DNA from: Flavobacteriaceae bacterium
GTDB lineage: Bacteria; Bacteroidota; Bacteroidia; Flavobacteriales; Flavobacteriaceae
NCBI GenBank assembly: GCA_947463515.1
Contig: CANHRI010000001.1
Coordinates: 58,470 to 122,469, forward strand
Reading direction: 5' to 3'
Length of the DNA stretch: 64,000 bases
Positions within the stretch are counted from its first letter, which is position 1. Each line of letters opens with the position of its first letter. The notes beneath the pieces are model-generated. The model saw only the letters and a list, made by a program, of their open reading frames with translations, did no database searches and was not told where the DNA came from. Both the position numbers and the translations under genes were made by a program. Positions 57,558 through 64,000 of this stretch are shown here, piece after piece.

Positions 57558-58514
57558 TTAAAATACCTCTTGAGCAATCGCCTTAATGTTGTCGGCTTTC
57601 CCCATGGAATAGTAATGCAACACGGGAACGCCCGCCGCCAAAAGTTCTTTACTTTGTTGAATGCACCATTCAATGCCAATTTGCTTCACCGCATCGTTGT
57701 CTTTGGCACGTACCACCTCCATAATCAAACTGTCGGGCAATTCCAGACTAAAGCGGTGCGGAATCAAGTTCAACTGCTTCTTTGTCGCGATTGGTTTGAG
57801 TCCGGGAATAATCGGCACCTCAATACCTGCTTTCCGACATTTATCGACAAAATCAAAAAACTTTTGGTTGTCAAAAAACATTTGCGTGATGATATAATCG
57901 GCGCCATTCTTAATTTTTTGCTTCAAAAAATGAATGTCCGAATCCAAACTGGGTGCTTCCATATGTTTTTCAGGATAGCCCGCCACACCGATACAGAAAT
58001 TGGTTTTGGCGGTATTTTTCAAGTCTTCGTCCAAATAAATTCCGCGGTTCAAATTACTAATTTGCTCCACCAAATCCGAGGCATAATGGTTCCCGTCTTT
58101 CTCAGGTTTGAAATAGGTTTCCGTTTTCAACGCATCCCCGCGCAGTGCAACCACATTGTCAATACCGAGGAAATCCAAGTCGATCAACAAGTTCTCGGTA
58201 TCTTCTTTGGTAAAGCCACCACACAATACGTGCGGAATCGCATCCACGTCGTATTTCCCTTGAATCGCGGCACAAATACCAACCGTTCCCGGACGTTTTT
58301 TGACCACTTTCTTTTGCAACAATCCGTTCTCCAACTCCTTAAATTCGTATTCCTCACGGTGATACGTCACGTCAATAAAAGGCGGTTGAAATTCCATCAA
58401 CGGATCAATCCCGTCAAAAATCGACTGGATATTCTGCCCTTTCAACGGCGGTAAAATCTCAAAAGAAAACAACGGCTTTCCTTGAGCATTTTCGATATGT
58501 TGGGTTACCTTCAT
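57558..58514 (-). CDS. metF: Methylenetetrahydrofolate reductase
   Basis: FSFEILPPLKGQNIQSIF; FIDVTYHREEYEF; DNVVALRGDALK; ITQMFFDNQKFFDFV. Confidence 0.95.
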   Translation of the reverse strand: MKVTQHIENAQGKPLFSFEILPPLKGQNIQSIFDGIDPLMEFQPPFIDVTYHREEYEFKELENGLLQKKVVKKRPGTVGICAAIQGKYDVDAIPHVLCGGFTKEDTENLLIDLDFLGIDNVVALRGDALKTETYFKPEKDGNHYASDLVEQISNLNRGIYLDEDLKNTAKTNFCIGVAGYPEKHMEAPSLDSDIHFLKQKIKNGADYIITQMFFDNQKFFDFVDKCRKAGIEVPIIPGLKPIATKKQLNLIPHRFSLELPDSLIMEVVRAKDNDAVKQIGIEWCIQQSKELLAAGVPVLHYYSMGKADNIKAIAQEVF

Positions 58515-58770: not shown

Positions 58771-58795
58771 CTCCCCCTTTGGGGGCTGGGGGGCT
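58771..58795 (-). repeat. 25-bp G/C element, inverted partner of 57410-57434
   Basis: Minus strand AGCCCCCCAGCCCCCAAAGGGGGAG. Confidence 0.9.
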
Positions 58796-61523
58796 AATCC
58801 GCCACATTCGGCGCCAACCACTTATGAGCCACCTCCACCGATACACCACGACGTTGCGCATAATCCTCGACCTGATCGGCTTTGATTTTCCCCAACCCGA
58901 AATACTTGCTTTCGGGATGAGCAAAATAGTAACCCGACACCGAAGCAGCCGGCCACATCGCCATACTTTCGGTCAGGGTTACTCCAATGCGTTCTTCTAC
59001 TTGCAAAAGTTTCCAAATCGTCGGTTTTTCCAAATGGTCGGGACAAGCGGGATAGCCCGGTGCGGGTCGGATGCCCTTATAATCTTCGGCAATCAAGGCT
59101 GGGTTATCCAACTGTTCGTCGCTGGCATAACCCCAAATTTCTTTCCGAACTTTCAAATGCAAATATTCAGCAAAGGCCTCCGCCAATCGGTCGCCCAAGG
59201 CTTTGACCATAATCGCCTGGTAATCGTCCAAATCCTTTTCAAACACGGCTGCTTTTTCATCAACCCCAAAACCCGTCGTCACACAAAAACACCCGATGTA
59301 ATCTTGCACGCCCGTTTCTTTGGGTGCGATAAAGTCGGCCAAGGCGATATTCGGCGCTCCTATATTCTTCTTTGACTGCTGACGCAAGGTGAGGAAAGTT
59401 GTCGGTGGTCGGTTGCTAGTTACTGGTTGTGGGTTGTCGGTGGTTGGCAGCACTTCGATATCATCATCGTTGACGGAATTTGCTGGGAAAATGCCCACTA
59501 AACCTTTGGCGATAAACCAGTTTTCGCTCACAATTTGCGCCAACATTTTTTGAGCATCGTCAAACAGCTGTTGCGCTTGTTCGCCTACGACATCATCCTT
59601 CAATATCGCGGGGTATTTCCCAAACAGCTGCCACGAATGGAAAAACGGTGTCCAGTCGATAAACGGCACCAATGCCGCCAAGGTTACCTTCACTTCTTGT
59701 ACCCCAATAAAATTAGGCTGAGCCGGTTGGTATTGGGACCAATCCAAACGCAATTTATTCGCACGGGCTTCAGTTAGACGCAAGAATTCCTTTTCGCGAC
59801 TGCGGTTCAAATACCCTTCGCGCAATTGATCGTATTCCTCCCGAATTTGTTCGGCATAAGTCGCTTTGTTTTCGGGTTGCAACAAATTACTCGCTACCGT
59901 TACGGCACGCGAGGCATCGTTGACATGCACCACACTTCCGGTGTATTCGGGGGCAATCTTCACCGCAGTATGTGCACGCGAAGTCGTTGCGCCTCCAATC
60001 ATAATCGGAATAGAAATATTCAAGCGTTCCATTTCTTTGGCGAGATACACCATTTCGTCTAAAGACGGCGTGATCAAACCACTCAATCCAATGATGTCTA
60101 CATTTTCAGCGACAGCGGTTTGTATAATTTTCTCGGGCGGTACCATCACCCCCAAGTCGATAATTTCAAAGTTATTACAGGCCAACACCACCGATACGAT
60201 GTTTTTTCCAATATCGTGTACGTCGCCTTTTACAGTAGCCATGAGAACCTTTCCAGCCCCCGCCGACTGACCGTCTTTACTGGCTTCAATAAATGGTAAA
60301 AGGTACGCCACTGCCTTTTTCATGACCCGAGCCGATTTCACCACTTGCGGCAAGAACATTTTTCCTGAACCAAACAAATCGCCGACTACATTCATCCCGT
60401 TCATCAAATGTTGTTCGATGACTTGGATGGGTTTATCAACCAATTGACGTGCTTCTTCCACATCTAGTTCGATAAATTCGTCCAAGCCTTTTACTAGGGA
60501 ATGTGTAAGGCGTTCTTGTACCGAACCGTTGCGCCATTCTTGAACAACCTTATCCGTGGTTTTGGTATCCGATTTTAAGTTTTCGGCGTAGTCGAGCAAA
60601 CGTTCTGTCGCATCATCACGACGATCAAGCAAGACATCTTCAACATAGGTGAGTAAATCGGGATCAATTTCGTCATAGATCTCTAACATTTCCGGATTCA
60701 CAATACCCATCGTCATGCCGTGTTGGATAGCATTGTATAGAAAAGCAGAGTGCATGGCTTCACGCACTTTGTCATTCCCACGGAAGGAAAATGACACGTT
60801 ACTCACCCCTCCCGAAACATGGGCATAGGGCAGATTTTCACGAATCCATTTTGTCGCTAAAAAGAAATCCACTGCATTGCGGCGGTGTTCCTCCATACCG
60901 GTAGCGACGGGAAAAATATTGGGGTCAAAAATGATATCGGTAGCCGGAAAACCCACTTGATGCACCAAGATATCGTAACTGCGTTTACAAATTTCGATTC
61001 GGCGTTCGTAGGTATCAGCTTGTCCCACCTCATCAAAAGCCATGACAATCACAGCAGCGCCGTAGCGTTTGATCAATTTGGCATGATGGATAAAAGCGGC
61101 TTCCCCTTCTTTCAAAGAAATCGAGTTCACAACGCCTTTTCCTTGGATGACTTTGAGTCCGGCTTCAATGATTTCCCATTTCGAACTGTCGATCATCACA
61201 GGAACACGAGCAATATCGGGTTCGGCTGCAATCAAATTCAGGAATTTAGTCATCGCTTCTACCCCATCAAGCATTCCTTCGTCCATGTTGACATCGATGA
61301 TTTGCGCACCGCCTTCTACTTGGGCGCGGGCAATATCTACAGCTGCCTCGTAATTCCCCTCTTTAATTAATCGCAAAAACTTACGGGAACCCGTTACATT
61401 GGTCCGTTCCCCTACGTTAACGAAGTTGGTTTCTGGAGTGATGATTAGTGGTTCTAAACCAGATAATCGCAAGTATTGGGTTGTCGGTTGTCGGTTGTCG
61501 GTTGTCGGTATCTCCTTACTCAT
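58794..61523 (-). CDS. metH: Methionine synthase, pterin/B12-binding/activation domains (split MetH C-part)
   Basis: [54 protein letters not shown]. Confidence 0.94.
59398..59446 (-). repeat. Intragenic heptamer array, 7 units, in metH
   Basis: Plus strand GTTGTCG GTGGTCG GTTGCTA GTTACTG GTTGTGG GTTGTCG GTGGTTG. Confidence 0.92.
61480..61507 (-). repeat. Intragenic heptamer array, 4 perfect units, 5' end of metH C-part
   Basis: Plus strand (GTTGTCG)x4; encodes [10 protein letters not shown]. Confidence 0.95.
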
Positions 61524-61530
61524 AATGCAC

Positions 61531-62541
61531 TTATATACGGGCTACTGATGACTGTAAACTGCTCTCGGTTCTCGGCTTAAATTCTGCCGCCACTTGTGCA
61601 ATCGCACGAATATGCTCTGGAGTAGTCCCGCAACAGCCCCCGATGATGTTCACTAAGTTTTCATTCAAATACTCGCGAATTAAGGCTTGCATTTCTTCGG
61701 GCGTTTGATCGTATTGACCGAAGGCATTGGGCAAACCAGCATTGGGATGCGCCGAAATATTGAGTTGGGTATGTTGCCCTAAGCGTTTTAAATACGGTTT
61801 CAACTGATCGGCACCGAGTGCACAATTGAAGCCAACACTTAACAAAGGAATGTGTGCAATCGATATCAAAAAAGCTTCCACCGTTTGCCCGGATAGGGTT
61901 CGCCCAGAGGCATCGGTAATCGTTCCAGAAACCATAACGGGAATATCGGATTGGCGTTCTTCTTTCACTTCTTCGATGGCAAACAAGGCAGCTTTGGCGT
62001 TCAGCGTATCAAAAATCGTTTCGACCAAAAGTAGGTCGGCTCCCCCATCGATAAGCGCTTCCACTTGTTGGCGGTAGGCAATTCGCAAATCGTCAAAAGT
62101 TACGGCGCGATAGCCTGGATCGTTGACATCGGGACTCATGCTGGCGGTACGGTTGGTGGGACCGATTGAACCTGCCACAAAACGGGGTTTGTCGGTAAAT
62201 TCGTCGGCTACTTCACGGGCAATTTTAGCCGATTGGTAGTTGAGTTCGTAGACTAAATCTTCCATATGGTAATCGGCCATCCCAATCGTGGTTCCTGAAA
62301 AGGTATTGGTTTCTACGATATCGGCACCGGCTTCAAAGTACGCACGATGCACGGCTTTTACGGCCTCGGGTTGGGTGATGGAAAGCAAGTCGTTATTCCC
62401 TTTTAGGGGATGAGGAAAATCTTTAAAACGTTCGCCACGGAAGTCAGCTTCTTCAAACTGATTGCGTTGCAACATAGTTCCCATGGCGCCATCGAGAACA
62501 AGGATTCGCTGTTTTAGAATTTCATTAATATTTACACGCAT
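61531..62541 (-). CDS. metH: Methionine synthase homocysteine-binding domain (split MetH N-part)
   Basis: [46 protein letters not shown]-like [14 protein letters not shown]. Confidence 0.94.
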
Positions 62542-62544
62542 AAT

Positions 62545-62698
62545 GATAACTAATCTTGTATTGCGTTATCAGGAAAGAGAGGATTCTCCTAAGTTATCTT
62601 TTTCTGAAAAAATCAGAATAGAATGTAGCACCTTCCTCGAGGTTGAGGGGTTGCTAAGCGTTCGTAGGGTCTATTCCCTCCCGCTTTCGTGATAACGC
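62545..62698 (-). ncRNA. SAM-I (S-box)-like riboswitch with expression platform upstream of metH
   Basis: Minus strand GUUAUCacgaaagcGGGAGGGAAUAGACCCUACGAacgcuuaGCAACCccuc...GGAAGGUGCUACAUUCU...GAUAAC. Confidence 0.88.
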
Positions 62699-62769: not shown

Positions 62770-62783
62770 CGCAAACGTTTGCG
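62770..62783. promoter_or_regulatory. 14-bp palindrome CGCAAACGTTTGCG (LacI/PurR-operator-like)
   Basis: Perfect palindrome lying between the divergent metH and metK promoters. Confidence 0.6.
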
Positions 62784-62800
62784 AAAAATTTAAAGATATA

Positions 62801-62834
62801 TTTGGAATTATTGGATTTGATTTTCATAAATTTG
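62801..62834 (+). promoter_or_regulatory. Promoter of metK
   Basis: TTTG (62801-62804), 22-nt spacer, TAAATTTG (62827-62834). Confidence 0.6.
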
Positions 62835-62849
62835 CAACCGAAAAATAGA

Positions 62850-62921
62850 AGAGGAGAAATTTGTTCTGATTGCAACCTCGTAAAAAAATGCTAAAGCAGT
62901 AATTCTTCTTTAGTTGTTGCA
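62850..62921 (+). ncRNA. Candidate SAM-II-like riboswitch in the metK leader
   Basis: GAGGagaAAUUUGuucugaUUGCAaCCUCgUAAAaaaauGCUAAAg followed by a segment complementary to both core motifs. Confidence 0.5.
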
Positions 62922-62972
62922 CCACCCTTTTTCCCTCTTATCATTTAAAACAAAAATTTTAAAGGTATAATT

Positions 62973-64000
62973 ATGGCTTATTTATTTACTTCTGAGTCGG
63001 TAAGTGAAGGACACCCAGACAAAGTAGCGGATCAGATTTCTGACGCGTTAATTGACAACTTTTTGGCATTTGATGCTGATTCTAAAGTAGCTTGCGAAAC
63101 GTTGGTCACTACGGGACAAGTTATTTTGGCGGGTGAGGTGAAATCTAACACCTATTTGGATGTGCAGCAAATCGCACGTGATGTCATCAAGAAAATTGGG
63201 TACACCAAAAGCGAGTACATGTTTGAAGCCAATTCATGTGGTGTGCTTTCAGCGATTCACGAACAATCGGCAGACATTAACCAAGGAGTTGACCGTGCCA
63301 CCAAAGAAGAGCAAGGGGCGGGTGACCAAGGAATGATGTTTGGCTATGCCACCAATGAAACCAACAATTACATGCCATTGGCGTTGGATTTGTCGCATGC
63401 CTTATTGATTGAATTGGCAAATTTACGTCGCGAAAACAATGAAATCACCTATTTACGTCCAGATGCCAAGTCGCAAGTAACTTTAGAATATTCTGACGAT
63501 AACAAACCGCAACGTATTGACGCGATTGTGATTTCGACCCAACACGACGACTTCGATCAAGAAGAAGCGATGTTGGCGAAAATCAAGAAAGACATGATCG
63601 AAATCTTGATTCCGCGCGTGAAAGCGAAATACCCACAATACGCCCATTTATTTAACGACGATATCACCTACCACATCAACCCAACAGGTAAATTCGTGAT
63701 CGGTGGTCCACACGGAGATACAGGTTTAACAGGCCGTAAAATCATCGTAGATACCTACGGTGGAAAAGGTGCTCACGGTGGTGGTGCATTCTCTGGTAAG
63801 GATCCGTCCAAAGTAGACCGTTCAGCTGCCTATGCAACACGTCACATAGCGAAAAACTTAGTCGCTGCTGGTTTATGTGACCAAGTATTAGTTCAAGTTT
63901 CTTACGCGATCGGTGTAGCTAAACCATGTGGTTTATTCATTGATACCTACGGAACAGCGAAAGTAGATATGACAGACGGCGAAATCGCACGTAAAGTAGA
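62973..64000 (+). CDS. metK: S-adenosylmethionine synthetase, truncated by window end
   Basis: [34 protein letters not shown]...[16 protein letters not shown]; open to base 64000. Confidence 0.97.

Follow-up and report, generated by a model that had tools for sequence, protein, structure and literature searches.

How would a SAM-II riboswitch act where there is no Shine-Dalgarno sequence to hide? In published accounts, switches of this class either conceal a Shine-Dalgarno site or form a terminator (PMC9373788, PMC2258182); Bacteroidetes are largely without Shine-Dalgarno sites (PMC6847099), so that how their riboswitches act is a question. It is raised by the metK leader in a 64,000-nucleotide stretch of DNA (the window) from a Flavobacteriaceae bacterium (GCA_947463515.1, contig CANHRI010000001.1), where metK faces a metH operon with a SAM riboswitch of its own.

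The metK leader matches RF01726 (SAM-II long loops) over the full length of the model (positions 1-60), with an E-value of 6e-10 for the whole 64-kb window, and is the only copy in the genome. Its aptamer ends 68 nt before the metK start codon. The parts of the locus on this strand are:

62827..62834 (+): TAAATTTG, metK promoter -7 box TAnnTTTG of the Bacteroidetes type (sequence)
62845..62904 (+): SAM-II long-loop aptamer, RF01726 (cmscan, 63.7 bits against a gathering score of 44)
62851..62854 (+): P1 5' strand GAGG, partner CCUC at 62876-62879 (RF01726 alignment, sequence)
62866..62874 (+): P2 pseudoknot 5' strand CUGAUUGCA (CTG with CAG in 149/159 leaders)
62889..62899 (+): P2 pseudoknot 3' strand UGCUAAAGCAG (RF01726 alignment, sequence)
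62973..63998 (+): metK, methionine adenosyltransferase, running off the window (NCBIfam TIGR01034, 465 bits)

An initial annotation of this DNA had recognized a SAM-II-like metK leader from its landmarks, a reading that the RF01726 score bears out, and every segment it quoted is found in the letters where it had been placed. The model it named was RF00521 (SAM-II/SAM-alpha, PMC1273637), which shares with the leader P1, the P2 pseudoknot, the UUGCA and GCUAAA motifs and SAM as presumed ligand, but which gives no match in the leader even at E up to 5; the family is instead the catalogued long-loop variant. RF01726 is expected upstream of a SAM or methionine gene in Bacteroidetes, and the gene here is metK. 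Of 159 leaders, 158 have a TAnnTTTG or TAnnTTGC box in front of the aptamer, at a median of 13 nt before P1, so that the transcript should begin almost directly with the aptamer. The layout of P2, which we take from what is known of SAM-II structures, is read as pairing potential (CUG/CAG plus UUGC/GCUAA), without compensatory changes. Judged from its sequence, the metK leader is a SAM-II long-loop riboswitch of the kind catalogued in Bacteroidetes, and it is predicted to bind SAM. The leader is also conserved in related metK genes, a point on which the initial annotation had staked its reading: RF01726 occurs in 235 of 249 family genomes and in 98 of 101 of the genus. Many genus genomes (L201-L212 and other long-loop leaders) carry an extra hairpin, for example ACUGAAAAAUUUUCAGU, in the loop between CCUC and GCUAAA, with stem letters that resemble the P2 strands ACUG/CAGU.

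Beyond the aptamer, three segments can pair back with it in reverse order, reaching the P2 3' strand, the P2 5' strand and then the P1 strand:

62908..62914 (+): anti-aptamer segment 1, CUUUAGU, partner GCUAAAG at 62890-62896 (P2 3' strand; fold, sequence)
62916..62921 (+): anti-aptamer segment 2, GUUGCA, partner UGCAAC at 62871-62876 (P2 5' strand; fold, sequence)
62930..62938 (+): anti-aptamer segment 3, UUUCCCUCU, partners AGAGG and GAAA within 62850-62859 (P1 5' strand), with A62855 bulged (fold; own-versus-foreign pairing test)

The initial annotation had pointed to the complementarity of CUUUAG (62908-62913) with CUAAAG (62891-62896) and of GUUGCA (62916-62921) with UGCAAC (62871-62876), both of which the letters confirm, and had suggested that one downstream segment could unfold both core motifs. 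Duplex tests on 158 leaders and folding of this one support the suggestion and extend it to the whole aptamer; the third segment (62930-62938) was absent from that account. The minimum-energy fold of 62850-62943 is a long hairpin with all three anti-aptamer helices and not the aptamer, at -20.2 versus -13.4 kcal/mol with P1 kept, a preference of about 7 kcal/mol in which, as in all the ViennaRNA energies, neither the pseudoknot nor SAM is taken in. When the transcript is folded as it grows, P1 is present at 62880-62900, the P2 3' strand is captured at 62915 and the full hairpin has formed, with P1 lost, by 62940. Taken alone, this leader is modestly unusual against dinucleotide shuffles (RNAduplex z -1.9, p 0.04; fold z -1.87, with 8 of 200 shuffles equally good).

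The signal is carried by the family. Across 158 leaders, which are related, so that shuffle and permutation trials are not independent and kinship inflates the numbers, duplexes between the aptamer and the sequence downstream of it beat dinucleotide-shuffled downstream sequence with a mean z of -2.8, reaching p<=0.05 in 70% and p<=0.01 in 47%, while about 30% miss p 0.05. All three helices occur in order in 48% of leaders versus 2.5% of shuffles, in an automatic test that missed the present leader, where a chance match to segment 3 elsewhere scored equally high. The downstream sequence also pairs better with its own aptamer segment than with foreign ones (-1.28 kcal/mol, permutation sd 0.14, 0/20000), the segment compared being the variable stretch from GAGGA to before CUGAUU. 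Shared ancestry alone offers no reason for the sign of the duplex and own-versus-foreign signals. The paired segments moreover differ between leaders, those of the Flavobacterium type using CUUUAG/GCAAU/UUUUUCCUC and others CAAAUCCUUCC or GUCAAAUCUUCC, which argues for pairing rather than for a fixed motif. The initial annotation had proposed to look for compensatory changes in an alignment of flavobacterial metK leaders. With 44 leaders aligned by MAFFT, RNAalifold gave none, and it returned the aptamer and not the alternative hairpin, because the downstream segments are not in register in the alignment. On these comparisons, the downstream sequence that would undo the aptamer is real and conserved across the bacterial family. 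An extension to other Bacteroidota was dropped, as the signal there is weak (mean z -1.2 in 20 leaders, some of them probably mis-parsed).

The computation itself shows that the aptamer matches its family, that an alternative hairpin can form and is conserved, and that this hairpin follows variation in the aptamer; beyond that, we infer an order of events, an OFF sign and a readout. As transcription proceeds without SAM, CUUUAG would capture the P2 3' strand first, GUUGCA would next take the P2 5' strand, and UUUCCCUCU would then displace P1, until a single long hairpin (62850-62938) remained. If SAM is bound before about 62915-62940 is made, the pseudoknot would keep its strands and the downstream region would be freed. 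Stepwise folding of this kind suggests a kinetic switch, in which SAM would have to bind before some 15-40 nt more had been made. Feedback logic would make the SAM-bound state OFF for metK.

The readout is the weak link of this model. The S. meliloti metA and metZ SAM-II switches are reported to hide the Shine-Dalgarno sequence or to form an intrinsic terminator (PMC9373788), neither of which is seen here: occlusion of a Shine-Dalgarno sequence by P2 was considered and rejected, a search of the metK leader gave no intrinsic terminator, and the start codon lies 68 nt beyond the end of the aptamer, so that the two classical mechanisms do not fit. The likeliest readout, at an even chance or slightly less, would be reduced accessibility of the start site in the SAM-bound state. 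Relative to shuffled leaders, the region from -20 to +12 is more accessible in the SAM-free model than in the bound one (difference 0.034, t 4.6). The shift has the sign that an OFF switch should give but is small; at this metK, accessibility hardly differs (0.457 free versus 0.435 bound). Sequestration of the start codon was accordingly set aside as a general SAM-II readout, its average effect being small and at this metK nearly absent. In some leaders, L003 among them, a GUUGCUUUU...AAAAGCAAC hairpin ends beside the start codon, and it is present in the SAM-bound model only.

The small accessibility effect and the absence of an intrinsic terminator from the metK leader are what give room to the main alternative, in which the same aptamer and anti-aptamer would be read out by Rho-dependent termination: SAM would free a G-poor, pyrimidine-rich and unstructured stretch of about 70 nt on which Rho could load, and without SAM the hairpin would hide it. 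The downstream region has the composition for this, with 19% C, 8% G and a C/G ratio of 2.3 across leaders, and 14 C and 5 G in 73 nt in this one. Pairing with a purine-rich aptamer would, however, produce an excess of C over G in any case, about 70 nt is little for Rho to load on, and the literature search found no Rho data for these leaders. We regard termination by Rho as possible but on the doubtful side.

Two other explanations would do away with the anti-aptamer. The complementarity could be conserved for another reason, such as a protein or sRNA site, with the aptamer acting by itself, and in one set of leaders CUCCUUUAG, GCAAU and UUUUUCNUC do look like conserved motifs. Yet leaders that lack them pair elsewhere with the aptamer (for example CAAAUCCUUCC with GGAAGGAUUUG), and the downstream sequence tracks aptamer variation, so that we hold this explanation to be improbable. 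Chance complementarity in an AU-rich leader would be hard to dismiss from this metK leader, at p 0.04, but the duplex scores, the three helices in order and the preference for the own aptamer segment across the family make it most improbable. Our preferred reading, which we consider likely, is that of a SAM-II long-loop riboswitch with a three-step anti-aptamer, in which the SAM-bound state is OFF and start-site accessibility the most likely readout, and that the metH SAM-I switch works alike.

That switch stands on the opposite strand of the same intergenic region, where the initial annotation had placed a metH SAM-I switch facing metK; RF00162 finds it at 80 bits, as the only copy in the genome. 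The metH leader is thus a member of the SAM-I (S box) family, with a fold unlike that of SAM-II:

62591..62698 (-): SAM-I (S box) aptamer of the metH operon (RF00162, 80 bits against a cut-off of 44.4)
62563..62571 (-): UGAUAACGC, second partner of the SAM-I P1 5' strand GCGUUAUCA (62698-62690), both anti-aptamer and sequestor strand (fold, sequence)
62544..62550 (-): GUUAUCA, partner UGAUAAC at 62571-62565, in a hairpin ending 2 nt before the metH ATG at 62541-62539 (fold, sequence)
61531..62541 (-): metH part 1, the homocysteine-binding part of methionine synthase (TIGR02082 positions 1-325)
58794..61523 (-): metH part 2, the rest of methionine synthase (TIGR02082 positions 319-1181)

The metH SAM-I switch would likewise use a second copy of a P1 strand, here the 3' strand, and its hairpin would lie right against the start codon. 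In fold models, the UGAUAAC/GUUAUCA hairpin is present when P1 is formed and a 9-bp anti-aptamer helix when it is not; averaged over the whole start region, modelled accessibility changes little (0.64 to 0.59). A near relative, L177, keeps the UGAUAAC/GUUAUCA stem with a rewritten loop. Among the SAM-I leaders tested, the P1 5' strand can form a helix of at least 8 pairs with downstream leader sequence in 62% versus 14% of shuffles, a count to which this metH leader and L177 contribute no signal, since in both the copy was taken for P1 and the leader misparsed. As modelled, the start-codon hairpin on the metH side is clearer than the metK readout. The two switches had been described in the initial annotation as controlling opposite sides of the methyl cycle. 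In fact metH and metK catalyze consecutive steps (homocysteine to methionine to SAM), so that repression of both by SAM would be a coherent feedback.

The metH locus has further features. Methionine synthase is divided between two neighbouring reading frames, with metF (57558-58514, TIGR00676) coming after them; a run of GTTGTCGG-type repeats lies at the start of the second metH frame (61480-61515), with a similar stretch inside that frame. Midway between the divergent promoters, 62770-62783 is a perfect palindrome, CGCAAACGTTTGCG, followed by a T run on the minus strand. Its core has one other exact copy in the genome (G000:C2:36919). We rejected CGCAAACGTTTGCG as a genome-wide operator, its core GCAAACGTTTGC being found at only two places in the genome versus one match per strand for a reversed control.

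The arrangement recurs in the family. RF00162 was found in 199 of 249 family genomes, and both classes in 193, a figure obtained by hand comparison, in which 6 of the 14 genomes without RF01726 carry RF00162 (G048, G066, G118, G138, G151 and G170). By a regular-expression search, 32 of 219 metK loci, a set that is not random and includes several chosen for adjacent-looking coordinates, have a divergent SAM-I core within 700 nt of metK. Several of these pairs were confirmed by RF00162 coordinates, and the named loci include Flavobacterium and Polaribacter. The divergent partner gene has a metH-type start in 10 of the 32; the others are mostly like O-acetylhomoserine sulfhydrylase or cystathionine synthase/lyase, as judged from N-termini only and not by database match. 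The 2007 survey of Barrick and Breaker had found no species with both SAM-I and SAM-II (PMC2258182); here the two classes coexist in 193 of 249 family genomes and in a fraction face each other. Four genomes of 1.3-1.9 Mb, partly incomplete (G004, locus L019; G052; G081; G239), have no SAM-I match and two SAM-II copies. At L019, one copy precedes a gene that starts like O-acetylhomoserine sulfhydrylase, a type found under SAM-I in other genomes, an arrangement whose sequence suggests a swap of riboswitch class.

The aptamer itself belongs to a catalogued family, and both the phylum and the gene that it precedes are usual for that family: RF01726 (Weinberg et al., 2010; PMC2864571) is like the metK leader in aptamer consensus, Bacteroidetes host and status as a cis-regulatory element or switch. 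The expression platform may be new. No description of a downstream strand-exchange element for RF01726 was found in a literature search outside the 2010 supplement, nor, in literature with few subscription journals, one of the anti-aptamer or of divergent SAM-I/SAM-II pairs; searches on RF01726 mechanism, Rho and Bacteroidetes riboswitches returned nothing specific. Two SAM riboswitch classes also share one intergenic region in the tandem SAM-II/SAM-V of marine alphaproteobacteria, where they lie on one transcript, whereas here they lie on two divergent ones.

There is about an even chance that flavobacterial SAM-II switches use an undescribed, mirror-image platform, in which a pseudoknot is unzipped in three ordered steps while transcription is under way, by several clade-specific solutions, and no Shine-Dalgarno sequence is needed, and that back-to-back SAM-I and SAM-II switches recur as a unit that controls consecutive steps on the way to SAM. 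The conserved and mutable anti-aptamer would offer a testable account of how SAM switching works without Shine-Dalgarno sites.
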